From Tomocerus qinae (taxonomy: Eukaryota; Arthropoda; Collembola; Entomobryomorpha; Tomoceridae): 64,000 nt of DNA. Under the pieces are notes generated by a model. That model did no database searches and had not been told where the DNA came from. It saw only the letters and a program-made list of their open reading frames with translations. Shown in pieces: positions 7,880 through 56,936 of the stretch. Numbering within the stretch: position 1 is the first letter of the stretch; the number at the start of each line of letters is the position of its first letter. A program made the translations under genes and the position numbers. The DNA lies in the NCBI GenBank assembly GCA_020055645.1, contig CM034546.1, forward strand, positions 61,690,001 to 61,754,000. Direction: 5' to 3'.

Positions 7880-9724
7880 ATGCAGACTGAAGAGATTCAG
7901 AATTACCTCAAGTTCCACCTTTTACTCGTGGACACTATACCAAGTCACCTGCGTAAAATATTCCAAGATACGTGGCTTACTTTTAGTAGAAATCCATGGG
8001 GAAATACCCCAACAGACGGAAAGGAACTTGTTGGTAGACTTGGAAAAAAATTTTACAGCAAAGAAATGAAGATTCAAAAGCAGTATTTGCAATCAGGAGA
8101 CATAAACAAATGGGATTTTCCATTTTTGGCGAAAGTTATTAATCAGTTAGCTAGTCAAGATCCGTCTTTAACACCTGAAAATATAGCTAAACTCCAGGCT
8201 CTAAGCACGTTGGTACAAATCAGGAATAAATTTGGTCACATTGGAACTCCTTTTCTGTCAGCTGATGACTATAATTCAAATTGGACTGATGTAGTGGAAG
8301 TTCTGGAACAATTTGGAATAACCGAGGAAGAATTGGAAACGTCTTCAACTTCACAGATAGTTGGCGTAACCCAAGTAAGCCACAAAAATACGAACGAAGC
8401 AAAGAAAATTAAAGAAATTGGAAATAAATTGCTAGGTAATGGAGATATTACAACGGCTATTGTCCGTTATTCAGAAGCTCTTCTTTTGACAAATATTCAT
8501 CCAGATGAGCAAGCTATTATTTACTCCAATCGGTCGAAAGCGTATCTTGATTTGGAGGTGACTGACACTGATCATGCAATCGAAGATGCCGAGCAAGCGA
8601 TTAATCTTCATCCTCGGTGGTGGAAATGCTATTTTCGGTCAGCCACTGCCTACGAAGCAGTTGAAAATTTTCAAAAAGCAATTAAATTCTTCAGTATTGC
8701 ACTGGCATTAAACCCGGGTGGAACTGAAATTGAAAAACGAGTGGGATTTTGCAGATTCAGAAAATCATTGAGCGAAATCGAGTCAAAAGATTTGTATAGA
8801 AGTGTGAAAGAATGTGCGGAAACGTATTTGAATGAAAAGGAATCTAAGAATGAGAAGATTAGTGATAAAATGATTGAGGAGGCAAAGGAAAAATTAAAAA
8901 CAGAAAATTCCTATTTGGGATTAATAGTCAAAGGCCATGAGAACCGAGAATCGAAAAAATTCCAAGAAGCTTACGAATCTTTTCAACAAGCAGAAACTAT
9001 GGGTAGTAATGGGAAGAATGCAGAAGCTTTATATAATTTAGCAATGCTGAAAATGAACGAAAGACTGAAAAATGGGACTATTACTGAAAATATTCAATCC
9101 CTTGAAAAAGCTGCGATGCAAGATACTAGTGGGAATATCGGAGTTGCAGAATCTCAATTTATTCTTGGACTTTATTTCCAAATGACTACACAGAGTTTTG
9201 AAAAAGTACTTTTATGGTACAAAAAATCTGCAAAGAATCTAAATGGTTTGGCTGCTAATCAACTTGGAATGTTGTATGATGAAGGAGTTTTATTTGCAAT
9301 GAACAAAAATATGGCAGTTGAATTCTGGAATAAAGCAGCGGATTCAAAACAAAAGGTTCTTCCAGCCATGGAGTCATTATCTAGACATTTTCTCGAAACT
9401 TTCGAATTCGAATTGGCAATTAAATGGCACACAACTGCTGTTGAAAATGGAAGTAAAGTTTTATCAGTAGGAAAAGATAATTTTAAAGCTGATGTTAATG
9501 AATTAGAGACTTATTATACGGATTGGAAGATGACTAAGACGTTAGAAGAAAGATACAAGTCACCCGAGGATATTGAAACGGCAAAGGGGTTGAAAATCAG
9601 AGTTGATGTGAAAATCAAAAATATTCTTCAAGATCATTTCAAATATCATCCTCGAAATAAAAGTTCACCGTTGACTTTAACTGCCGTTACCAAGAAATTT
9701 TCAATTTTCTTCCAAACAAGATAA
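7880..9724 (+). CDS. HEPN (DZIP3-type), TPR and Sel1-like repeat protein
   Basis: A single 614-residue exon. Residues 1 to about 150 resemble the DZIP3/hRUL138-type HEPN domain: a helical start, then the signature RNKFGH at 115-120, which fits the catalytic R-x4-H motif of HEPN ribonucleases. Residues about 173-290 form TPRs (GNKLLGNGDITTAIVRYSEA, IYSNRSKAYLDLE, LHPRWWKCYFRSATAY). Residues about 375-530 contain Sel1-like units (AEALYNLAMLK, AESQFILGLYFQ, AANQLGMLYDEG). In animals this HEPN type accompanies immune and NTPase-containing proteins; an RNA-cleaving or adaptor role is an inference. The CARD-NB-ARC gene lies 3.4 kb downstream on the same strand. The stop is clean and no truncation is visible. 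Confidence 0.8.
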   Translation: MQTEEIQNYLKFHLLLVDTIPSHLRKIFQDTWLTFSRNPWGNTPTDGKELVGRLGKKFYSKEMKIQKQYLQSGDINKWDFPFLAKVINQLASQDPSLTPENIAKLQALSTLVQIRNKFGHIGTPFLSADDYNSNWTDVVEVLEQFGITEEELETSSTSQIVGVTQVSHKNTNEAKKIKEIGNKLLGNGDITTAIVRYSEALLLTNIHPDEQAIIYSNRSKAYLDLEVTDTDHAIEDAEQAINLHPRWWKCYFRSATAYEAVENFQKAIKFFSIALALNPGGTEIEKRVGFCRFRKSLSEIESKDLYRSVKECAETYLNEKESKNEKISDKMIEEAKEKLKTENSYLGLIVKGHENRESKKFQEAYESFQQAETMGSNGKNAEALYNLAMLKMNERLKNGTITENIQSLEKAAMQDTSGNIGVAESQFILGLYFQMTTQSFEKVLLWYKKSAKNLNGLAANQLGMLYDEGVLFAMNKNMAVEFWNKAADSKQKVLPAMESLSRHFLETFEFELAIKWHTTAVENGSKVLSVGKDNFKADVNELETYYTDWKMTKTLEERYKSPEDIETAKGLKIRVDVKIKNILQDHFKYHPRNKSSPLTLTAVTKKFSIFFQTR

Positions 9725-10265: not shown

Positions 10266-11930
10266 CTACTTAGGAATATGATAATTTTCAATGGCGTTTC
10301 CTTTTAGATTTTCGAAGACATAATAGTCTGCCATTTTGTCAACTTTCTGAGCTAGCTGACTAGAGCTGAAACGAGCCTCACTCCAGGCGAAAGGCCCAAG
10401 ATAAACTTTTTCCACAGACAAATTATTCTGAAGGAAGCTTAGAGCATCGTCATCAAGCTCAAACATTTTCATCCAGTTGATAACTAATTGGCTGGTTGGC
10501 TTGATATTTTCTAGGATTCTTTGGCTATCAGCAAGAGTATAATGTTCCAAAATCAGATTTTCAACATTCAGAAAGGAATTGCCTATGATATTTCGAATTC
10601 CTTGCATTTTGATTTTCCTAACACTTTTAGGTATCCAGTCTGAGTCAATTGTGTTATCGTTTGCTTCATAACCATATGTTCTAGTTAAATTGAGGTTGAC
10701 TAAACTTTCACAGTTTAAAAAGTGATGAAGCACAACGAAGCCATCTCCACTGCTGAGAGACAAGGTATTCAAGTTCTGAAGGAAAATTGGTCTACTGCAA
10801 AGTATATCTGATGTTATAAAGCCACATTCAAAAGAAATTTCTTGTATTCCTTGTGGTAGAATAGCCAAATCTATTGAAGCATTCTTAAAATACAATTTTT
10901 TGATTTGCATTCTTGTATTTTGCAAGATAGGCATTACTTGGTTTATTCGCAAGCTGTTTACATTACACTTTGAAATATCCCAATTCTTGAGTCCGGTCAA
11001 ATTCAAAGATAATTCATCAATTTCTTTAAAACTTTTGTCTCCTAAATCCAAAAATAAAGCTGAACGTGCACTTGAATGGGAACAACTCAAAGATATTTCT
11101 TTGGCATTTTCTACATTAAAATAATCATTGACACGAACCCTAGGAAGGACGTTGGCACCCTGACAAAATAGTACTGATGCCAAAGTTAAGCGGGTAGGAG
11201 AAATTCGAATTCCGTCTCGAACTTTAACTTCACATCCTATTAACTCCAAACTTTTGACCAAGTTCAACTGATGCAGAGACACTGAAAGGAAAGGATAACC
11301 CTTGCCTTTTAAATTTATACTCAAGGTAGAAATACAGTAGTGGGATATTAAAACACTAATGTCGTAAAAAACCGATTTTTCAAAACGCAATTCTTGTAGA
11401 TACAATTCTTTTATATTTCTTCTATTGCTATGCATAAAATCTTGGAATTCTGAAATCTGCATATTCATTCCAGTGAATCGAAATGATGGAAATGGTAAAT
11501 TGCTTTGGCTGTTATTGAATGTTTCAGTGAAATCCAAAAGGCTGCCCAAAAAGTTGACAGAAGGTTGTGATCGAAATGTAATTACTGACCGCCGTCTCAG
11601 AAAAGGCTCAGCAATATCATTCCAAGTGAGACATACGGAACGACAAGTTTTAATATCACGCAGGTTGAGGTACCGAAATAAGCATTTAATTACCTGTAAA
11701 ATGGTTTAAAATTAATATTTTCCTCTATAAATAATTACACAGCACAGCCGACTAAACAGTAATGATGTGATTGATAAAGTACACATACATTATCAATTAT
11801 TATCTCTAATCATGCCAATTATTTTACAAAATCTTACAACCTCATGAACCAACAAGGGATTAGTTTGATTTTCTAAGGTCGCTGAAGTTGAAATCTCATT
11901 ACTTGTTTCCATGTTGATTTTATCATCCAT
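10266..11930 (-). CDS. F-box protein with an LRR-like C-terminal module
   Basis: Two minus-strand exons: 11841-11930 (ATG, 30 codons) and 10266-11693. They join in phase 0 with a GT donor and a TTTTACAG acceptor and give 505 residues. Residues about 24-66 are an F-box (NPLLVHEVIKCLFRYL, NLRDIKTCRSVCLTWNDIA). F-boxes bind Skp1 and place the protein in an SCF ubiquitin ligase. The remaining 430 residues are LRR-like, with repeated short hydrophobic strands. They are clearly related to the C-terminus of the neighbouring CARD-NB-ARC protein: LFLDLGDK versus LSLDLGEP, and DYYVFENLKGNAIE (486-499) at the end. It is divergent from that gene, with 1.23 kb between the start codons. The long frame beginning at 11549 omits the F-box and is not the full protein. 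Confidence 0.85.
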
Positions 11931-13159: not shown

Positions 13160-16100
13160 ATGGCTGAAGAAATACGAAATAATTTGGTATTTCTTACCGA
13201 AAATTTAACTAATCTGCAAAAGGTTTTAATCCTTTGCGTACAACATTCAATAATCTCCACTGACGAATGGGAAAGAATTGTAAGTTAATTATTTACAGAC
13301 AGCAATAAAACCATTTGTCAAAATGTACGTTCACTTCATTATTTACACATAATTATTTTGCAGATGGCAGGTGAAACGTCTTTAGACCGAAATGTTCGTT
13401 TTTTTAACCTGTTAGTGAGAAAAGATTGGGAAGAAATCAAAATAACGATTGTTAAAGTTTTGCGAGACACTCTGAATGCCCACTGTGCGGACAAAATAGA
13501 ATATTTTGAAAAATCCCAAGCAGTTGACCACCCAAAAGAAAACCTGCAAAGTATTCAACTCAAACCTAAAATATTTGACTCTAAATGGTGGCCAGAAGAA
13601 AAACGTCTTCCAATGGCATTTCAAGAAAGAAAATCGGATGACAACAAATTGGTTGATATTTTGAAAGAGAAACTGACTAAGAGTAAAAATGGGTCAACCG
13701 TTATAAACCAAGAAGCTGCTGTATCTGGAATGGGCGGTGTAGGGAAAACCACAGCTGCAAAATGGTTTGCCCGTGATTACCAAGATTCTTACGATCACAT
13801 AATTTGGATTGACTGTGGAGAAGGAAATCTTATGAGTTCCTTCATAGAATTGGCTAAAGAATTAAAGATTGACGGAAATCTTCGTCTGAATTTATTAGCA
13901 CGAAAGTGTTTTTCAAAGCTGGATGGTCTGAAATGTTTATGGATCTTTGATAATGCAGAATGCTACCAAGGTCATCAAGGGATACGAGAAGTGCTTCCTA
14001 AGAACGACAATTTTCATTCACTAATTACATCAAGGACTAAAGAATGGGGAAGCGACTCAGGAGATGGGGAAATTCCAGAACTTCATCTGACTGCGTTTTC
14101 CCAATTTGACAGTATAGAATTCTTGACGAAGAATTTGAAAGATGATTTGTATACATTAGATCAATCAGAGGAATTGAGCGATCTGCTAGGAAATCTGCCA
14201 CTAGCTTTACAAATAGCTGTGACGACAATCAACAGCAAGAAATTAAGTCTGGCCAGTTACATCGAAAGAATAAAGCAAACAGATCACATCATCAACCAAA
14301 ACTTTGATGACTATGAAAAAACTATCAATAAAACAATGAAGATATCTTTGGACATTATAAAAAATCATGAATCAGATCCCAAACAGACGGCCCATAAAAT
14401 TCTCCTCATTTTAGGCTACATCAAACCTGATTATGTCGATTTTAAATTATTTGAAAGCATTGGAAATCTATCAACGTTTGAAGTGGCAGAAGCAATGGAA
14501 TTGCTAGAAAAATATTCTTTGGTGACAACGCATGTCAATCGATACTGCAATATTCATCGGTTGTTACAACAAGTAATCCGTCACAATGGAAAGGAAGACG
14601 AAGAAAACACTCTCAAAATGATTTTAACTGCTGAAGGATTTCTTGAGTACAAGTTACTTCCTTATTTGTATGCTAGCCCAGAGGTTCAAATTCAATTTCC
14701 CAAAATTCGCGCTCAATTGATTGATCAAAGAAAACTGAATGATTTCATGGAACAACGAAGATTTAGCGAAGCAGTGGAATTATCCCGAATGATCAAAGAT
14801 ATAATAATGACACCTACAGCAATGTACAACTATGCGGTATGCCTAGAAAAAATGAACGAATTGTCAGAAGCTGTCAAGGTTCTTGAAAAACTCCATGAAG
14901 ACATCAAAGGTGTCCCAAACTCAAAAATGCTCCAGTTGGACAATAATTATAACACGGTTAGCCCCGATATAAATAGAATAACTTTCAGGACAGACGGAAA
15001 TGGAATTTTACAATTGAGTCTAGAAATGAAATCCGAATTGATTGGTGGATTATTATTTCTAGTTTATACTCGCCTGGCAATGTTTGACGAAGCCAATAGA
15101 ATTGCAGAAGAAGAAAGGATGCTGATCATTTTCAAAACCACGACCTCCTTGAACTGTGTGATAAAACTTTTGAGAGATCATTCTGCAATTGGTAACTACC
15201 ATGTAAACAATTCCCAAAAATTTATATCATTGACCTTGGAAAGAGAAAATTATGGGAAAAAAATTTCCCTCCAAAATTGTTGCCTCAGCGAAGATTTCCC
15301 AAAAGATTTGGATCATTTGTTGCTAAATTTCGTGGATATGCTCAACGCTGATTTACAACCTGAAAAGCACTATAATTTAACAATTTCAAAAAAGCTTAAA
15401 AAACTGGAAATTGAATGTAGTGATCATTCAACAAGGTTTTCCATCCAGATAAATGACGATCTTCTGTCTTGCAATATCATCACTTTGAAAAGTTGTACCA
15501 TTCTGTTGAACCATGGATGTCGTTTAATTCCAAGGACAATAAAATTGGACGACATATTATTCATCCGAGATGGCGACGAAATAGAAACTGTTTCTGTTAA
15601 CGAATTCGTTGATTTTCAAAACACGAATCAATCATCCCTTTACGGAAAAAACTTATCGTTGGATTTAGGAGAACCATTCAGCGTGGAAAATGTCTTTCTC
15701 TATGGATTTAAATCCTGTTTAAATTGGGGTCAATTTAATTGGACAATCGATGAGCTTACTTTAATGAGCATGGACGTCCCTTTGGTTGAAAATGATGTCA
15801 CTTTGAATTTAAGTACCCTTCATTTGAGGTATTGCTCTATTCACTTGACTTCTTTATTCTTTCTGTCCAAGAATGTGAAAAATGTGATACTTTTCAATGT
15901 CGAATTGGAGTTTGATCAAACTAGAAATCAAGTACTAGTTGCCACCGACAAAATCAAGTTAACAGATATAGAACTCATTCAAAATTCAGTTAATGTCATC
16001 GGAAATATTTCCTTGGGCAAGATTTTTGATTTGGCCAAAATCAAAGAACTTTCGGTGAATTGGTCAGAAGAAAATTCATCGACACCAATATTGGACCTGC

Positions 16101-17335
16101 AGGAAAATATTTCTGCTGCTTTGTATCTGGAACGAGTAAAAATAATTAATTGGGACAAATCCAATGGGGAGATTGAGGATCTAACCCTTAAATACGTCGA
16201 AATTCAAGACGTATTACATTCACAGTTCAGAATCACTGATAAATTAACGATCTTAGATTCTGTTATCGATTTAGCGTCTCTCAACACTATCTCTTCCGCT
16301 ACCAAAGCATTGGATCTGTACAGAACAACAATTAAATTGACTAACCAGGGTGAATCATTGTCAAAATCCTTCCATTTGAATGGTCAAGTTGAATATCTTG
16401 ACTTCCATGAAATGACCGTTCTTAACGAAGGAGAAAAAGTTGACACTATTGTAATTAATCAATTAGTAAATATCTCCAAACTTAACATTATGAAGTTGTA
16501 TTGTCCTGAGGGGGAAAAGAATCAAATTGTCCTGGATATGGCAGACGAAAATATTTCTTTTGACACTCTTTCATTATCAAATGTCAAGATCCTCAATTGG
16601 GAGAAGGGAAATGGGAAAATTGAAGAATTATCAATGTTCAATAGTCCCTTTCTGAAGAAAAATCAAGTAAAAATTAATTCCTTGAATTTTGGAAGCTCTT
16701 TAATTGACCTGTTGTGCTTGCCGGACAATATTCAACGAATTTCATTATTTGGAAACAGCACAGTCACATGCAAGGGAAAATTAGTACTTAACGGTTTAAC
16801 ATACGTTCACCTGAGCCGTGATCACTCAGTATTGAAATACTTTTTCAACTGCAGAAATTTGTCTAAAGTCGAATTGGGTCCTTACAACGGTAAAATCGTT
16901 CTTGATTTACAGATGATACCTAAAGGGGTTAAAGTAATGAAGCTTTATCAACACCCCTTTCCTAGTTTACCATCTGGGACTTTATTTGAGGCATTGGGCA
17001 TCGGGAAACATTCACTGAACACAATCATATTTGTTAACTTCCCTTTGGCTGATATTGAATTTGCTTTGACAAGATTCGAGACCGAAAATATAATTATTAA
17101 AAATATGAACATAAGACTCAACAAAATGTCGGCCAATTCTACTCCCATTACGTTGATCACGTCTTACCAAATGAAAACGTTGGCAATCGGTCGATTTAAT
17201 TGGGAGACTGATGAGGAATATGAAAACTCATGTTTGACTCAATTTCTTGAAGAGAGGGGAAATTATTACATTTTTAAAAAACAAAGGGGATCAGTCATTC
17301 ATGAACCAGAATTTGATAAACTTGCGGTCCTTTAA
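13160..17335 (+). CDS. CARD / NB-ARC / TPR / LRR-like NLR-type receptor
   Basis: Two exons, 13160-13279 and 13364-17335, join in phase 0 (ATT|GTAAGT; TTTTGCAG|ATG) and give 1,363 residues. Residues about 5-88 read as a CARD: NLVFLTENLTNLQKVL, then DEWERI, MAGETSLDRNVRFFNLLVRK and VLRDTLNAHCADKI. The NB-ARC follows: P-loop GMGGVGKTT (162-170), Walker B LWIFD (232-236), sensor-like SLITSR (259-264), GLPL-like LGNLPLAL (315-322) and an MHD-position IHRLLQ (437-442). A TPR-like pair lies near 500-560. From about 655 to the end is an LRR-like region with three modules of about 145 residues marked by LNWGQFNW (826), INWDKSNG (968) and LNWEKGNG (1117). NB-ARC proteins are nucleotide-switched oligomerising receptors, and CARDs recruit caspases or adaptors. 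The LRR label is by eye; no canonical LxxLxLxxN ladder is obvious. Confidence 0.88.
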
Positions 17336-29975: not shown

Positions 29976-32357
29976 ATGGATCGTGATAAAATAATTAAAT
30001 CAACGATGCAAATATTAATTATAGTTTTCGTACTGATAACCAAAACATCATGTGCCACAACTCAGACATCCAATTCTGAACAAGTTATTTCCAAGTTCCT
30101 AAATGTGTATCGTGAATGCGCTGTGCACATCTTTTTCTTTGACACAGCAAATGCCAAAGAAATTTCCCTACACGAAATAAAAACTCCTGTGACAATATCA
30201 AACAGTGACATCAAAACTATACGCAACAATTCAAATTTATACAAAATGATAACCAATCCTTACAGCTTAGACGTGTTAAGCTTCGAATATGGATTTAACC
30301 ATTATGACTATTCAGGAGTTCCTAATATATATATTCTATCATCTTACAGGGAAGACCTTCTCAAAGACGATAAAAAGTATTTGAAAATTAAACGTCACAA
30401 ATACCTTCGATGTCTCTCACACATATTCATTCATCCTCATGACCAGAAAGAAAAATACACAGACTTTCAATATTTCTATGCGTACTACAAAATGTTCATG
30501 GAATGGCAACTGCCCCCAACGTTTTTGAATTCTCCTCAGAAAACTAATATTAGCACAAATATTTTAACTACTCTTCTGTTGAAAACGAGGACATTTGACG
30601 ATGGCAGAATACTGAAAAACCATCACCAACCAAATACTTACGTAACTATTGTAACAGAAAAGTCAAAGCATGATCTGGCTTTTCTTTTTAGATTGGTAGC
30701 CCGACTTGAAGAAAACGCCCTGCCCGAGAAAACCTTTTTCTATTTCACTCCCTCAAATACACTTTTAGGGCTGTGCAAATATTGCAATGCCTTCGGAAAA
30801 GAAGGAATCCCTGTCACTTTTGAATTTAATGAGAATGATGGAATATTCAACCATTTCCCATTCGATAGCCGGAATCCGAAAGAACTCGTCATGCAGCACA
30901 TGTTCTTGCCTGTAGATGTCAATTTGCACCAATTGGATCTACAGTTCCTAAACAAATGGAAAACGGAATCAATTTGGAAATTGAATTTTTGGAATTTTGC
31001 TCGTTTTATGTCACGTGATAATAAATTTTGTTCTGGGTTATGCTCTCCCTTGAAATTTAAAGATATCTCAATGACTAAAGAGTATGATGAGGAGTTTATT
31101 CTTTGGGCACGTCTCTCGTCATTTTTTGAAAATTTAGAAAACATTACAATGTTTTCCACGACAAAGTTTAAATATCTGAATCCTAGAATTCATAAATATC
31201 TACCAAATGGTATCGACGTGAAGTATAAAGACCAAATTGAAAAACACGTCAACTATTTGCTAATTGACGAGGGGAGCAATGTTGGATTGACATTCGTTAC
31301 GTGCATCACTTCCGAAGATGGATTTAATTTCTATGCATTCTACAATCCTTTTCAACAAAATCTTTGGATTGGACTTTCGATATTCTTTCCGGTTTACATT
31401 CTTGTTTCATCTTATCTTTGTGATCCGGAAGTCTTGACATCGGGTGGAATCAACATTAAGATTATATCAAATTTTTCATTTAATATATTAATCTCTCTTT
31501 TTGAACAAGGAATGTCATTCTCATCAAAATTCCAAACCCAATTTAGATTTAAGATTTTATTTTCCTGTTACTTGCTTGCTCTTATTGTTTTGATCAATGC
31601 CTACAAAGGAATTGCGATAACTGACATCACAGCACCAAAACCATTTACAAAATTGAAAACATACAAGGACATTTTGAAGAAGGAAGACATTAAAATTCAT
31701 TTTGAATTTCCATACACTCGTATGTCTTTAAACGAGTCGGTGATGGTTTTCAAAAATTTAAAGGAACATTTTGACACAGTCATGGATGAAAACTTATATA
31801 AAGTGGTTGTTAAGGCTACCTTACCTCCAAAAAACCAAACCATTCAAATGAGCATTGCCAATTGTAAAGATACAGTTTATACAAATTTTGCTACGGACCA
31901 GTTTTATGCCAAAGAATCGTGGGAATTTCTATTCGGCACAGGTCGTCAACTTAAAAGACCACTTTATGAAATTAAATCTCAAGTAGCAATTCGAAATCAA
32001 TTTATTTTGCTAAGTAACTTTCATTTGCCAGAGTTTTTTAATCTAAGGCTTCAGATCTTACAACATTCAGGACTGGCACGTGGTTTGGAAATTCTATTTT
32101 TTTCGCGTTACTATTGTCACCAATGTAAGCAAAAATTATTTGCTTATGATCGAGTAGGTCGTGCAACGGCTGTTAACATTCATAGCAACATTATCGTTGT
32201 CTTTATTACATTTGGTTTTGCAATTGCAGTTTGTTTGATTGGCTTTGGTCTCGAATTTCTGAGGCCATACGTTAAATATATCTGGTGGAAGTTGTTGAAT
32301 ATAATATCATTATGTAAGCTAAGGTTAAATTTTAACACAATTTATAAAAAAATGTAA
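29976..32357 (+). CDS. Divergent ionotropic receptor (IR), intronless
   Basis: A single 793-residue frame. It starts with a signal-like segment (ILIIVFVLITKTSC). Hydrophobic segments follow the iGluR/IR pattern: M1 about 463-484 (IGLSIFFPVYILVSSYL), a pore-loop region with SLFEQG (about 500-512), a second helix about 525-546 ending INAYKGI, and the last helix about 737-760 (FITFGFAIAVCLIGFGLEFL). IRs are chemosensory ligand-gated cation channels in arthropod sensory neurons. The extracellular part is long and poorly conserved. The usual SYTANLAAF gate motif is replaced by AYKGI, as in the gene at 54774-56936. A tuning IR or gustatory role is plausible; the ligand is unknown. Confidence 0.78.
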   Translation: MDRDKIIKSTMQILIIVFVLITKTSCATTQTSNSEQVISKFLNVYRECAVHIFFFDTANAKEISLHEIKTPVTISNSDIKTIRNNSNLYKMITNPYSLDVLSFEYGFNHYDYSGVPNIYILSSYREDLLKDDKKYLKIKRHKYLRCLSHIFIHPHDQKEKYTDFQYFYAYYKMFMEWQLPPTFLNSPQKTNISTNILTTLLLKTRTFDDGRILKNHHQPNTYVTIVTEKSKHDLAFLFRLVARLEENALPEKTFFYFTPSNTLLGLCKYCNAFGKEGIPVTFEFNENDGIFNHFPFDSRNPKELVMQHMFLPVDVNLHQLDLQFLNKWKTESIWKLNFWNFARFMSRDNKFCSGLCSPLKFKDISMTKEYDEEFILWARLSSFFENLENITMFSTTKFKYLNPRIHKYLPNGIDVKYKDQIEKHVNYLLIDEGSNVGLTFVTCITSEDGFNFYAFYNPFQQNLWIGLSIFFPVYILVSSYLCDPEVLTSGGINIKIISNFSFNILISLFEQGMSFSSKFQTQFRFKILFSCYLLALIVLINAYKGIAITDITAPKPFTKLKTYKDILKKEDIKIHFEFPYTRMSLNESVMVFKNLKEHFDTVMDENLYKVVVKATLPPKNQTIQMSIANCKDTVYTNFATDQFYAKESWEFLFGTGRQLKRPLYEIKSQVAIRNQFILLSNFHLPEFFNLRLQILQHSGLARGLEILFFSRYYCHQCKQKLFAYDRVGRATAVNIHSNIIVVFITFGFAIAVCLIGFGLEFLRPYVKYIWWKLLNIISLCKLRLNFNTIYKKM

Positions 32358-49189: not shown

Positions 49190-49595
49190 CCCTCATTGCA
49201 GAATCGAAAAGGCTCCTAAAGCTATTGCTACTATAGTCATCCATAAATAATTTTCTCTGTTCCCTCACTTCTTATAAGAAATTCTTGTTTCTATTTTTGG
49301 CGAGAATTGTACACCCACGACACCCAGATCCAATTCTGACTTCATTACTATCATTACCAATATTCCTACATCCATATTAATTGACAGTGCTAAAAAGCAA
49401 TATTATACTATAATCTAAAAGAGACGGAAAATTCTGCTCTAGTTATTGAATAGTTTTCGACGCGAACGTCTTTTAATCAAACAGAAATTCAGAAACATTA
49501 AGAGAATCGAAAGAAAGGACCAACTAGTAGATTTCAATACCCATAACGTGAGCTTTTCAAGGTTTGTGGAAAAATTAATTTCCATTCTTTTAGAA

Positions 49596-51626
49596 ATGCA
49601 GTTGGGTGAGATAAATCTTCGAGTGCAAAGTAGGTCAATCATAATTCTCTTTCTATTAGCAAATGTTACACATCTTGCATCCCCAAGTGCATCGTCTCAA
49701 TATTTTCCTATACTCAGTGAAATGGAGTCTATATCTAAGTTCTCAGCCGCAATTGTGAAAAAGTACTTTTCGCAATGTGACTTATTTTTCATCAGCCAAG
49801 AAGATCATAAGGACGAAAAGACAAAAATCATAAGAAGGACGGAAATAGCAGAAAAAATTATGTCGGCAACAAAAAGAGATTCTTTCGTCGTGGCAATTTC
49901 TAATAAAATAAAATTGCAACACTCAAGTTTCGATTTAAATTCTCTGTCTCGAAGGATTGGAAACAGGATGCACTGTTCTGTTATCATCACTCATTCATTC
50001 ATGCTTACTCCGTTGTTTTCAAATAAATTTTTGTCCCTTCTGACCAGTCATGTTAATTCAGTTACGAAAAAAGACGAAGATCACTACATATTTATTACAA
50101 GCGAAGGTGACCAGAGAAATATTTTGTTGTCTGAATTTGCAAGGCATTTCCGTTACAAACTAATTTTGTACCAGGATAGAAAAACTCGACAAATGATCGG
50201 GAAAAGTGTCTGTTTTTACTGCTTATCGGGAATACACGCTATATTCAATGTCAATACTGAAAACGCATTGCAAAGCCAAACGGAACTGTTCCCAGACTTT
50301 ACTTTAAATGCCTACGGACACAATCTCGTTATATCTATCTCCACAAGAGTAACATTCTCGACGGAAATCGAAGAAATTAATGGGAGGTGGTTGTTCAAAA
50401 GGGGATATGTTAGATATGTTGTCGAGGAAATGGTCGGCATGTTCAATTACACGTACAAAATCATAGCATCGACTGGGAGAGGCACAGGGGCCAGATTGCC
50501 AAACGGAACTTGGGTAGGCTCAGTTGGGGACGTATTAAGTGGAACGGCTGATTTGGGAGTACCGGTCGGTCTTAATTTGGCCCGATTTCTAGCCGTAGGG
50601 CTTACAAATTCCTTTTTTGATGACAGCTGCATAGTTTTCATAGTGGGGCTACCCAAACAGTATTACACTTGGAAATCCATTTATCTGCCATTTAAAACTA
50701 CTTTATGGATTTTTATTGTTCTTTCGATTATTCTGGTCACCTTAGAGTTTTGTTTGATTCAAAAGTTTGAGTTTGTGCTTGTTGGAAAATTCTTCAGACA
50801 TAAATTTTTACATGTAATTTCAGTATTGTTGGAACAGAACGTAGAATTTCCTACCAAGATGTCCCCGAGGGTACTTTGCATCATTTGGATGCTGATGTCA
50901 GTAATCATAACCACTCTGTACCGATCAAAGCTTGTGGGGCTGATGACCTTTCCAGTTTTAGCGACCACTCCGTCGACATTTACCGAACTGTCAAAATCCA
51001 AACACTTTGAGTGGGGAATGGACATCTCTGTCGTAGCTGGCTCAGCAATCCCCTACTTTAAAAATGGAGGAAGTACACTAAAAAATATTTATTACGGGAG
51101 GAAAATCGGCTGGGAATCCGACTGCATTCTGAAAACAATGACAAATAAATTCGCTTGCATTTCTTGGAAGGAAAAAGCCGAGTACTTTCTGTTTAAGAAC
51201 TTCAGTTCAAATTCTGGCAGACTGCCGCTTGTATTTTCGAAGGACTCAATTGCTCCCACTGTATCTGTATTTGTTATGCAGCACAGAGAAATATTTCACA
51301 ATAACTTCAATCGAGTAATTAGCGCTATAAAAGACTCTGGATTAATTTTAAAGTGGCATTCGCTAGATAGAGCTTCAGTAAGGAAAAATCATTTGCAATG
51401 GACGAAGGAGAATAATGTGACTTCTGTTCATGAGCGTGAAGGACCTGCAAAGCTTATTTTTGCTGAAGTGCAGGGGCATTTTTATTTACTATTCGTCGGC
51501 AGTATCATTTCAGTGTCTATATTGCTATTAGAAATCGCTTCTGTGAAATTGCGGATGCTCCACTATTTCATTAAAAGTTTCTGCGGCATTGAAAGGCCAT
51601 CTGGTTATTTGTGTCCTGATTACTAA
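49596..51626 (+). CDS. Ionotropic receptor, intronless coding region
   Basis: 676 residues from the ATG at 49596, which follows a strong CCATTCTTTTAG acceptor; the frame upstream is 5' UTR or intron. Signal-like segment SIIILFLLANVTHLASP. A recognisable ligand-binding S1 half: GRWLFKRGYVRYVVEEMV, then GTWVGSVGDVLSGTADLGV. M1 about 367-388 (LWIFIVLSIILVTLEFCLI), a pore region with LLEQNVEFP, the next helix about 425-445 (LCIIWMLMSVIITTLYRSKL), and the last helix about 628-650 (FVGSIISVSILLLEIASV). An arthropod chemosensory cation channel by family. It is the most IR-typical of the three intronless copies. Confidence 0.85.
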   Translation: MQLGEINLRVQSRSIIILFLLANVTHLASPSASSQYFPILSEMESISKFSAAIVKKYFSQCDLFFISQEDHKDEKTKIIRRTEIAEKIMSATKRDSFVVAISNKIKLQHSSFDLNSLSRRIGNRMHCSVIITHSFMLTPLFSNKFLSLLTSHVNSVTKKDEDHYIFITSEGDQRNILLSEFARHFRYKLILYQDRKTRQMIGKSVCFYCLSGIHAIFNVNTENALQSQTELFPDFTLNAYGHNLVISISTRVTFSTEIEEINGRWLFKRGYVRYVVEEMVGMFNYTYKIIASTGRGTGARLPNGTWVGSVGDVLSGTADLGVPVGLNLARFLAVGLTNSFFDDSCIVFIVGLPKQYYTWKSIYLPFKTTLWIFIVLSIILVTLEFCLIQKFEFVLVGKFFRHKFLHVISVLLEQNVEFPTKMSPRVLCIIWMLMSVIITTLYRSKLVGLMTFPVLATTPSTFTELSKSKHFEWGMDISVVAGSAIPYFKNGGSTLKNIYYGRKIGWESDCILKTMTNKFACISWKEKAEYFLFKNFSSNSGRLPLVFSKDSIAPTVSVFVMQHREIFHNNFNRVISAIKDSGLILKWHSLDRASVRKNHLQWTKENNVTSVHEREGPAKLIFAEVQGHFYLLFVGSIISVSILLLEIASVKLRMLHYFIKSFCGIERPSGYLCPDY

Positions 51627-54773: not shown

Positions 54774-56936
54774 ATGAAAAATGTATTTTATTACCACAAA
54801 ACGAACTGCAGTTTTTTTCTTGGTGTTTTCTTAATTTATTTGCTTAAAAGTGCTCTCTATTATTCTGACGCCCAATCGAAACATTTGATTACTAAATACT
54901 TCCAGAGTTGTTCTTACTTACATTTCATTTCGACACAAAGTACAGAAAAAGAACGGAATTCGTTTATAAATATTTTTGAACTGCTCCACGAAAATTATCA
55001 ATCTTTAGCATTTACAGTGCCTGAAGATTCGAATTTTGCACGTGCAAATACATCATCAGCTATCATTCCTTTTCAGGAAATTGAATTTAGAAGGTTTAAA
55101 CGATGCTCGGTGCAAATTTTTGTAATTTCTGAAAACTTACGACATGCACATGCTAATTATTACTTGTTAAAACTTGTGCAGAAAAATATTGACCCCGATT
55201 TAATTGTTTTTGCTTTGGATGAAACATTTTCTATTTCTTCTGAAGCATTCGGAAAAAATGAGTTTTATAGTAACTTGTACAAATATTCACTGACATCTCA
55301 ATTTTTATTATTCACTCTTGAAAGAATTAATTACGCATTCCATTACATTTGCCCACATCGTCAAAGAATTAGCAACGCGAATAATTTGGAAATGATTTCT
55401 AAATTAAAATCGGAATGCATCAACAACCTGCACGGAATTCCCATAAAATTGGAAGCGTCGGCGGGGACAAGAGTAGAGAGATTTAAACAATTTCAGCGGA
55501 TTGAATCTTGTGGCTTAGCTTACGACAAAAAGGTAAATGTTGTCGGATCTTGTGCTCTACGGACGTTGGCCACGAAACTTAATTTTACATTGACACTGAA
55601 TGAAAACGATTCTTCAGCTGTTTACAATTCATTCACTTATAGCTACGGTTTTGGTGGCACTTTGATAAATCTATTTTTTTCTCCACATTTGAAAAACTAC
55701 AGCGTGAAATACGAGTGGCTGCCGGGCTGTGAGAAAGCAGAAGGATTTACATACATTGTGGTCATGGATCGGCGATCTGCCATGAAGGGATCCTCCGCTC
55801 TCGTAAATTCATTCGATACGGCTACGTGGACTTTCATCTTCCTTTGCATCGTCGCCAGTTGTGTGGCTCAATGCCCCACCAAAAGAAGTGTTTTGAATAT
55901 AACTTCCTTGTCAGTTGCCAACGTCTTCGAACAAGGCCATCCTCAATTTACAGCCAGAAAATTATCCAACCACACCTTAATATTTTTCATCCATTTCATC
56001 CTAGTGTTGATAGTGCTAAGTGGGGCATACAAGGGAATCTATTTCTCACTGCTCACTAAAATACTTTCCCCGGATATTCCTCAGAATTATGAAGAATTGG
56101 CATATAGCAAACTCCCTTTATTGACCACCTCTTTCTTTTACAGTGGAAAGAATTCGTCTTCCAAAGAATCCAGTTTAGTTGATGAATTTAGGAATTTGTT
56201 AGCAGGGACGCCAGGTGTTGATTACCCTGTATATTACAAGATGTTAAACGATTCTATTTTATTTGTCGACTTGAACAAAATGGATTTCGTTCTGAAATTG
56301 AAAAATCTTTCTTTATTCTCAACCAACCAAGGCACATTGAAGTTACCCAACAAATTCGCAATTATCGAATGGACTAACGATGCAAAATTATTCGCAGAGC
56401 ACGTGACAATATTAACCCCACAGAACTACATTTACAAAGGACCCAGACTACTTGCACTGCTAACAAGGATACCCTGGATAGTCATTAAGAACTATTTGTG
56501 CGAATCTTTGCTGGCTAAGCTGTCTGCTCTCCACTCGGCAGGAATTTATTCCAGATGGGTCCAGCAGAGCAAGGAGTTGTTTCCTCTCAGATTGGACCCC
56601 AGCATTCTGCAGACCTATAAGAATGACGTAGGCACAATGAAGAGTCTCACCAATTTTTTCCATATCAACTCTAAAAGCCATTTACGTGAAGACGAGCTGG
56701 ACAATGAGCCCCACCCTCTCTCACTGCACAACCTTTTAGACTTCTTTCATCTTTACAGTTTACTGCTAGCCGCATGTTTCGCCATTTTCATACTGGAACT
56801 GTCCAGTTATCAAATTATATGGAATAAGACTCGGAAATATGCCCATTTAATATATAAACACATTGTAAATGAATTCTATTTTACTTATTATAAATATACA
56901 AACTCTATTAAAAGTAAAATAAAGGGAAATCATTAA
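54774..56936 (+). CDS. Divergent ionotropic receptor (IR), intronless
   Basis: A single 720-residue frame starting in good context (TTAAAATGAAA). N-terminal hydrophobic segment FFLGVFLIYLLKSAL. M1 about 350-367 (ATWTFIFLCIVASCVAQC), pore region VANVFEQG, next helix about 400-422 (LIFFIHFILVLIVLSGAYKGI), last helix about 660-683 (SLLLAACFAIFILELSSYQII). The AYKGI and FEQG motifs are shared with the IR at 29976-32357, so these two are paralogues of one divergent lineage. The ligand-binding region is weakly conserved, and glutamate-type ligand contacts cannot be traced. Confidence 0.78.
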   Translation: MKNVFYYHKTNCSFFLGVFLIYLLKSALYYSDAQSKHLITKYFQSCSYLHFISTQSTEKERNSFINIFELLHENYQSLAFTVPEDSNFARANTSSAIIPFQEIEFRRFKRCSVQIFVISENLRHAHANYYLLKLVQKNIDPDLIVFALDETFSISSEAFGKNEFYSNLYKYSLTSQFLLFTLERINYAFHYICPHRQRISNANNLEMISKLKSECINNLHGIPIKLEASAGTRVERFKQFQRIESCGLAYDKKVNVVGSCALRTLATKLNFTLTLNENDSSAVYNSFTYSYGFGGTLINLFFSPHLKNYSVKYEWLPGCEKAEGFTYIVVMDRRSAMKGSSALVNSFDTATWTFIFLCIVASCVAQCPTKRSVLNITSLSVANVFEQGHPQFTARKLSNHTLIFFIHFILVLIVLSGAYKGIYFSLLTKILSPDIPQNYEELAYSKLPLLTTSFFYSGKNSSSKESSLVDEFRNLLAGTPGVDYPVYYKMLNDSILFVDLNKMDFVLKLKNLSLFSTNQGTLKLPNKFAIIEWTNDAKLFAEHVTILTPQNYIYKGPRLLALLTRIPWIVIKNYLCESLLAKLSALHSAGIYSRWVQQSKELFPLRLDPSILQTYKNDVGTMKSLTNFFHINSKSHLREDELDNEPHPLSLHNLLDFFHLYSLLLAACFAIFILELSSYQIIWNKTRKYAHLIYKHIVNEFYFTYYKYTNSIKSKIKGNH

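Follow-up and report, generated by a model that had tools for sequence, protein, structure and literature searches.

A CARD–NB-ARC–LRR-like gene of the springtail Tomocerus qinae, a probable NLR-type receptor from a large family

A stretch of 64,000 nucleotides of the Tomocerus qinae genome (assembly GCA_020055645.1, contig CM034546.1, positions 61690001-61754000), indicated below as the window, contains a two-exon gene (13160-13279 + 13364-17335, + strand, in window positions), whose product of 1,363 residues is probably an intracellular receptor of the NLR (nucleotide-binding, leucine-rich repeat) type, belonging to a large family. As read from the sequence, a CARD, an NB-ARC ATPase with its conserved motifs and a long leucine-rich repeat (LRR)-like region follow each other in this order; the CARD is conserved among relatives, the family is large and partly tandem, and in one tandem cluster a fast-changing predicted repeat surface is combined with a conserved ATPase. 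A solenoid fold, ligand sensing, oligomerisation, a CARD partner and an immune role would, we infer, go with such a design. The original prediction had described a receptor of this kind: its CARD and its NB-ARC stand and its LRR-like solenoid is supported by sequence pattern, remote profile match and selection, while the limits it had set on known architectures do not (see the last section), and a tetratricopeptide repeat (TPR)-like stretch, lying between NB-ARC and repeats and recognised by ANAPC3 and TPR_19 in paralogs, had been overlooked. The features of the gene are collected in Table 1.

A large family of relatives

The window lies on a contig of 140 Mb (C1 in the following), in a genome of 334.4 Mb and 115 contigs. 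At least 126 NB-ARC places were scored genome-wide, all above the cut-off, one of them within an APAF1-like gene; these are domain matches, and membership in the CARD–NB-ARC–LRR-like family is not established place by place. C1 makes up 42% of the genome and carries 116 of the 126 places (binomial p 2e-32, a figure which ignores tandem duplication), eight of which fall within 10.4-10.6 Mb of the contig and 46 within 27.9-39 Mb. When the whole window protein was compared with the genome, 34 scored candidates, out of 899 selected at first look, gave 44 match rows, several of which may correspond to one gene. By these counts the receptor gene is not a lone one.

The intact frame, along with ratios of nonsynonymous to synonymous substitution rates (dN/dS) below 1 in exon 1 and NB-ARC, rules out a pseudogene. 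Contamination is ruled out by the location of 116 of the 126 NB-ARC places on a 140-Mb contig and by the intron found in the genes.

One NB-ARC relative (L014, 2657-6007, - strand) features a DZIP3-like HEPN domain ahead of the NB-ARC (2.6e-5, under the cut-off); the effector end of the family may therefore be modular.

Gene model and first exon

The two-exon model came out exactly as originally proposed, with a phase-0 intron (GTAAGT donor, TTTTGCAG acceptor) and a stop-free frame. The short first exon, predicted to be easily missed, is not a chance feature. Paralog modelling was carried out at 25 chosen loci, several of which are tandem copies: in 21 of them a homologous exon 1 ends in a phase-0 GTAAG donor at the same splice site, while none was recovered at the other four (L034, L039, L045, L047). 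Of the 21 exons recovered, 20 count 120 bases, while that of L024 counts 126. A first automatic search, run on the first 20 paralog loci, had found a homologous exon of 40-42 residues with a GTAAG donor in 13, and had remained blank at seven (L010, L013, L014, L021, where the fetched stretch is incomplete, L025, L027, L028); the L027 exon, missed at that stage, was recovered in the later 25-locus modelling. In tblastn, with the window protein as the query, the exon-1 stretch scores E values from 5.4e-6 to 2.1e-11, where listed as a separate stretch.

Purifying selection acts on this exon: among the 120-base exons, dN/dS is defined for 139 of 210 pairs and is below 1 in all 139 (median 0.235), and changes number 4107 at the third codon position, versus 2522 and 1824 at the other two. 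As modelled, exon 2 lacks an initial methionine in 6 of 19 genes. The junction between the two exons is thus far supported by sequence comparison with the paralogs.

CARD

The N-terminus had been described as CARD-like by eye, and this was confirmed by profile searches. Removal of three repeated peptides left a set of 19 spliced N-termini, from 18 paralogs and the window gene; three of these (L030, L031, L036) had been fetched via a CARD search, the remaining 16 being picked otherwise. Pfam CARD recognises all 19 with E values of 1 or lower, the best being 5.8e-15; the window CARD region scores E 2.8e-5 and 24.5 bits, barely over the Pfam cut-off of 23.9. A profile built on the CARDs retrieves known CARDs from PDB: CARD8 (3.6e-8), MDA5 (3.2e-7), APAF1 (1.7e-4) and ASC (2.8e-4), and, more weakly, NOD1 (0.0011), CED-3 (0.0035) and CED-4 (0.022). 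An alignment in which the intron was carried as a loop was dropped, as the paralog exon 2 fell onto exon 1.

Genome-wide, a limit of E 1 gave at least 83 CARD places, of which 16 exceed the cut-off. Nearly all (77 of 83) either end at or before model position 45 or start at or after position 38; a split at this point is what a family-wide intron within the CARD predicts. In 25 of the 83 cases the CARD place precedes a listed NB-ARC place of the same strand by no more than 5 kb, and none is located downstream; random placement on C1 gives a mean of 0.14 such upstream cases, with a maximum of 2 in 500 trials. For the remaining 58, the list of NB-ARC places shows none at such a distance; the counts of both kinds of place are minimum numbers, and the majority of CARD places score weakly.

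A strong CARD exon (1.3e-8) without a listed NB-ARC place nearby was observed at L029 (1492-1776, - strand); it could be a CARD adaptor or a caspase partner.

NB-ARC, winged helix and bacterial relatives

The NB-ARC assignment is confirmed by PF00931, which matches the window protein at 3.4e-9, and by the presence of the domain in 22 of 22 members. The motifs originally named were all found: GMGGVGKTT at residue 162, Walker B (LWIFDNAE) at 232, GLPL-like (GNLPLAL) at 316 and IHRLLQ at 437. The last of them falls in a winged-helix region, where 20 of 22 members match PF25000 (DUF7779) with E values of 0.1 or lower, down to 1e-5. An NB-ARC domain with P-loop, Walker B, GLPL and a winged-helix histidine motif places the protein among the STAND (signal transduction ATPases with numerous domains)/NB-ARC proteins. 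NACHT, the domain of animal NLRs in the strict sense, is matched at E 0.07, under the cut-off, versus 3.4e-9 for NB-ARC.

For 22 of 22 members the top NCBIfam match is a bacterial protein, the FxSxx-COOH system TPR protein NF040586 (window 5.5e-39, best 1.1e-44). The query was the 479-residue front part of exon 2, and the match, spanning model positions 14-337 of 830, reaches 134.3 bits, short of the whole-protein cut-off of 300. In PDB, the NB-ARC profile matches Roq1 (6.3e-5), ADR2 (0.0012), AfsR (0.0014) and MLA13 (0.016); APAF1 and CED-4 are absent from its 10 matches at E up to 1. PADLOC models are not matched by the window member, while single other members match a few of them, the strongest at E 0.00095.

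A scan of prokaryotic genomes produced at least 590 pattern matches and at least 284 relatives, 80 of which were kept. Among the matches listed, the best seven come from Rickettsiella or other Coxiellaceae, with 30-34% identity. A tree was built on 92 rows: 14 of the 22 family rows, 75 of the 80 prokaryotic rows (spanning more than 230 model positions), AfsR, Roq1 and the APAF1 of T. qinae itself. The 14 family rows form a single clade, with a support of 100 (Shimodaira-Hasegawa-like approximate likelihood ratio test, SH-aLRT), placed beside seven Coxiellaceae rows (90) and among prokaryotic rows. In a second tree, from which five long rows were removed, family and Coxiellaceae rows share one side of a branch with a support of 99.8. 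The root is unsure, the APAF1 and Roq1 rows being long and meeting each other, and many rows, family rows included, were flagged by the program for unusual letter make-up. Since the eukaryotes in the tree, besides the family, are Roq1 and the springtail APAF1 only, a transfer and its direction are not established.

Four of the Rickettsiella/Coxiellaceae loci (L048, L050, L051, L054) encode proteins of large size, in which the NB-ARC is accompanied by long other parts.

TPR-like and LRR-like repeats

The TPR-like stretch, in which TPR models remain under their cut-offs in the window protein, is more evident in the relatives: ANAPC3 is matched by 11 of 16 members (best 1e-4), and TPR_19 by the paralogs L028 (8.4e-13) and L025 (1.1e-7).

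The LRR reading of the C-terminal half is supported by sequence analysis, but not proven. The repeats had been called LRR by eye: motif pattern, remote profile matches and selection point to a degenerate LRR-like repeat, while the Pfam LRR models remain under their cut-offs in the window protein. After residue 620, 25 hxxhxh motifs are found at a threshold of 2.5, compared with 6.3 +/- 2.3 in shuffled sequences (maximum 15 of 2000 shuffles); the NB-ARC part, used as a control, shows no excess (3, versus 3.8 in shuffles). The excess of strong motifs holds whichever of five thresholds between 2.2 and 2.7 is used, and 17 of 24 gaps correspond to a spacing of 18-31 residues. A profile of residues 1076-1250, based on 11 genes (window and ten paralogs) out of 13 stretches, with L023 and L043 left out, retrieved two PDB sequences with E values of 10 or lower, LRR proteins in both cases: 3goz (0.0029) and FBXL2 (6o60, 0.14). 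The family alignment was reduced from 20 to 16 rows by leaving out L009, L013, L025 and L017. FNIP is matched by 2 of 16 members, and Pfam lists no WD40 match for the window protein or for the C-terminus of the members.

An open reading frame (ORF) of 427 residues, with homology to the LRR-like end of the family proteins, is located just upstream of the gene on the opposite strand (10266-11549, -). Compared with 14 family proteins, its best match is L011 (6e-21), and there is no NB-ARC in frame; it may be a stand-alone sensor or a fragment.

Selection in tandem paralogs

Selection was evaluated on the tandem paralogs L012, L017, L019, L022 and L043, located at 10.4-10.6 Mb of C1, which form ten pairs; the window gene is too distant from its paralogs for such a test. 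For NB-ARC, dN/dS is 0.24-0.29 in nine pairs; in the tenth, L017/L019, the proteins are identical there. The LRR-like part reaches 0.69-1.22 across the ten pairs. Within the motif, the ratio at the exposed offsets 1, 2, 4 and 7 exceeds 1 in 8 of 10 pairs, versus 2 of 10 for the core offsets.

A finer picture was obtained from six pairs of four genes. The proportion of replacement changes (pN) is 0.061, 0.082 and 0.074 at core offsets 0, 3 and 5, and 0.150, 0.157, 0.187, 0.337 and 0.215 at offsets 1, 2, 4, 6 and 7, with 0.155 at offset -1. The silent rate (pS) is 0.117 at offset 6, and 0.217, about equal to replacement, at offset 7. Offsets 6 and 7 were not used in motif picking, while 1, 2 and 4 were picked as polar; as a control, 314 polar positions elsewhere in the repeat region have a pN/pS of 0.60. 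For the exposed set 1, 2, 4, 6, 7 pN/pS is 1.49, the top of 17 register shifts, and pN is greater than pS in all six pairs; with two pairs that have no member in common the ratio is 1.69 (one-sided Fisher p 0.021), and comparison with the silent rate of the whole region gives p 3.5e-5. In the tandem cluster, predicted surface positions of the repeats hence outpace silent sites, as in recognition surfaces.

L017 and L019 share the same protein sequence from NB-ARC through TPR, with divergent ends; this identity suggests gene conversion in the cluster.

Table 1. Features of the CARD–NB-ARC–LRR-like gene, in window positions
Feature	Position	Strand	Remarks
Exon 1	13160..13279	+	40 residues, first half of CARD; start codon at 13160; paralog exons with same phase-0 donor
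Intron, 84 bp, phase 0	13280..13363	+	GTAAGT donor, TTTTGCAG acceptor; same position in modelled paralogs
Exon 2	13364..17335	+	1,323 codons and stop
CARD, second half (residues 41-86)	13364..13501	+	Pfam CARD 24.5 bits (cut-off 23.9), window member
NB-ARC ATPase domain (residues 135-370)	13646..14353	+	PF00931 3.4e-9 in whole protein; 22/22 members
P-loop GMGGVGKTT (residue 162)	13727..13753	+	invariant or almost invariant across 22 rows
Walker B LWIFDNAE (residue 232)	starts 13937	+	motif present
GLPL-like GNLPLAL (residue 316)	starts 14189	+	motif present
Winged-helix region, DUF7779-like (residues 383-448)	14390..14587	+	PF25000; window E 0.0067, under cut-off
IHRLLQ (residue 437)	14552-14569	+	inside winged-helix region
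TPR-like stretch (residues 499-563)	14738..14932	+	TPR models E 0.013-0.14 in window protein, under cut-offs
LRR-like repeat region (residues 620-1363)	15101..17332	+	25 strong hxxhxh motifs

Other genes of the window

A TPR protein of 614 residues (7880-9724, +; TPR_2 8e-9) carries at residue 115 an RNKFGH motif, which we take to resemble the HEPN nuclease motif; at a limit of E 0.01, Pfam detects no HEPN domain in the protein. Three long ORFs on the + strand (29976-32357, 49446-51626, 54774-56936) resemble ionotropic receptors, and Pfam Lig_chan is found in the second of them only (2.8e-11). A C2H2 zinc-finger gene is also present inside the window.

Alternative interpretations

Several observations weigh against an NLR-type receptor with an LRR-like sensor. 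The uncut window protein scores 18.9 bits for CARD, under the Pfam cut-off of 23.9. No Pfam LRR model is over its cut-off in the window protein (LRR_1 E 8.8), the profile of the whole C-terminus has one chance match only in PDB (bL9, E 1.9), and the 3goz and FBXL2 matches are sums of several weak stretches, none of which is significant singly. At a loose threshold of 1.6 the motif excess is not clear: 49, versus 41.5 +/- 3.3 in 1000 shuffles, with a maximum of 51. As to selection, dN/dS is also raised outside the LRR-like part, in the second CARD half (0.40-1.10) and in the linker (0.22-5.27), on 46-48 codons; the ratio at offsets 1, 2, 4 and 7 is below 1 in 2 of 10 pairs, and for this set the comparison of replacement with silent changes is not significant (p 0.29). 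The test covers a single cluster, where gene conversion is indicated, with four to five paralogs whose pairs are not strictly independent.

Part of these data would suit a scaffold protein, with repeats folded into a beta-rich solenoid other than LRR or into a superhelix of TPRs only: TPRs, not LRRs, are what Pfam recognises, FNIP is restricted to 2 of 16 members, and the motif excess fades at the loose threshold. We regard such a fold as unlikely, given the excess of strong motifs with most gaps at 18-31 residues, the fact that both PDB matches are LRR proteins, and the pattern of replacements at predicted surface positions; it is, moreover, partly compatible with the receptor interpretation, which needs a sensor, not strictly an LRR one. 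Somewhat less probable still is a family acting in self/non-self recognition or genome conflict, which would not sense microbes but kill cells or gametes with a foreign allele, by a logic akin to that of the fungal heterokaryon-incompatibility NLRs. The same architecture logic and the same signs of rapid turnover would be expected, and the concentration of 116 of 126 NB-ARC places on a single contig fits as well; nothing found here, however, indicates a role in mating or drive, and the sequence fits an immune role equally.

Least probable, and by our estimate very improbable, are lineage-specific paralogs of the Apaf-1/CED-4 apoptosome, which would sense an internal death signal and activate caspase-9-like proteins, without being pathogen receptors. 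The CARD does adjoin the NB-ARC, and the CARD profile retrieves, among others, the CARDs of APAF1 and CED-4 from PDB. Yet the genome features a separate APAF1-like gene (L001, C1:106752064-106755492), found in pieces, with CARD-like, NB-ARC and WD40 parts recognised by eye and a GMAGSGKS P-loop; the CARD–NB-ARC–LRR-like family is therefore probably not its Apaf-1. The family NB-ARC matches the FxSxx/TPR class, with neither APAF1 nor CED-4 among its 10 PDB matches, and lies in the tree far from the springtail APAF1 row, although this row is pieced together, very long and the sole animal APAF1 there. The C-terminus has no WD40 match, and a fast-changing repeat surface is unexpected in a core part of an apoptosome.

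If the gene encodes an NLR-type receptor, as we consider probable, the resting protein would keep its NB-ARC/winged-helix module closed and bound to ADP. The LRR-like solenoid might then encounter a ligand, of microbial origin or signalling danger, or a host protein that has been disturbed, with the TPR segment acting as a hinge or as a second interaction surface; ADP would be exchanged for ATP, and the protein would assemble into a wheel, whose clustered CARDs could recruit a CARD-bearing partner, a caspase or an adaptor, leading to cell death or to an antimicrobial response. A broader scenario, tentative and on balance doubtful, is that an NLR system arose independently in an arthropod lineage, from a bacterial-type NB-ARC-TPR module exchanged, in either direction, with Rickettsiella-like intracellular bacteria, joined to an animal CARD and to an LRR-like sensor, then expanded, with a diversifying surface. 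A CARD-NB-ARC-TPR-LRR-like family as large as this in an arthropod would represent a second way for animals to arrive at a plant-like NB-ARC-LRR receptor, here with an animal-type signalling domain. The family makes testable which partner the CARD has, whether the repeat surface senses microbes, and whether the ATPase came from bacteria or went to them.

Comparison with known systems

Arthropods are generally described as having few or no NLRs in their immune system, as the original prediction stated. This description is disputed by an NLRP3-like protein with immune function in arthropods, cited in a passage of PMC9334734. The genome paper of Entomobrya proxima reports the LRR domain superfamily among expanded families (PMC10432511). 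Within the open-licence literature, no paper on NB-ARC in springtails (Collembola) was found, and, among the entries listed, none describing, by title or start of the abstract, a CARD–NB-ARC–LRR-like family, which may still be published.

NOD1 and NOD2 combine a CARD signal, a NACHT-type STAND ATPase and an LRR sensor. The window protein likewise has a CARD, a STAND ATPase and a putative LRR-like sensor; the vertebrate receptors, in contrast, feature NACHT and no TPR stretch, where NB-ARC and a TPR-like stretch are found here. Plant NB-ARC-LRR proteins have a diversifying LRR surface, start with a TIR or CC domain and contain no TPR stretch. Those matched here (Roq1, ADR2, MLA13) share the NB-ARC core, and are the closest eukaryotic matches in PDB (Roq1 6.3e-5), while the window protein starts with a CARD and includes a TPR-like stretch.

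The bacterial FxSxx-COOH TPR protein (NF040586) corresponds to the family in NB-ARC and winged helix, and differs in that here a CARD is located ahead, an LRR-like end behind, and an intron within the gene. The large NB-ARC proteins of Rickettsiella and other Coxiellaceae (L048-L054) contain the nearest NB-ARCs among the prokaryotic matches listed, at 30-34% identity, sister to the family in both trees; their flanking parts, for which no CARD search was made, look unrelated by eye in four loci.

According to the original prediction, known CARD-NB-ARC proteins end in WD40 repeats or in nothing. This does not hold for the NB-ARC proteins of the placozoan Trichoplax sp. H2, where, in the passages available, 39 genes are described, with mainly CARD or death-like effectors, WD40 or TPR repeats and no LRRs (PMC6321704). 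In the literature passages compared, they are the nearest animal design: an NB-ARC core, CARD or death-like effectors, TPR repeats and expanded numbers are common to both, while, by description, the springtail protein adds an LRR-like region of about 740 residues after its TPR-like stretch.

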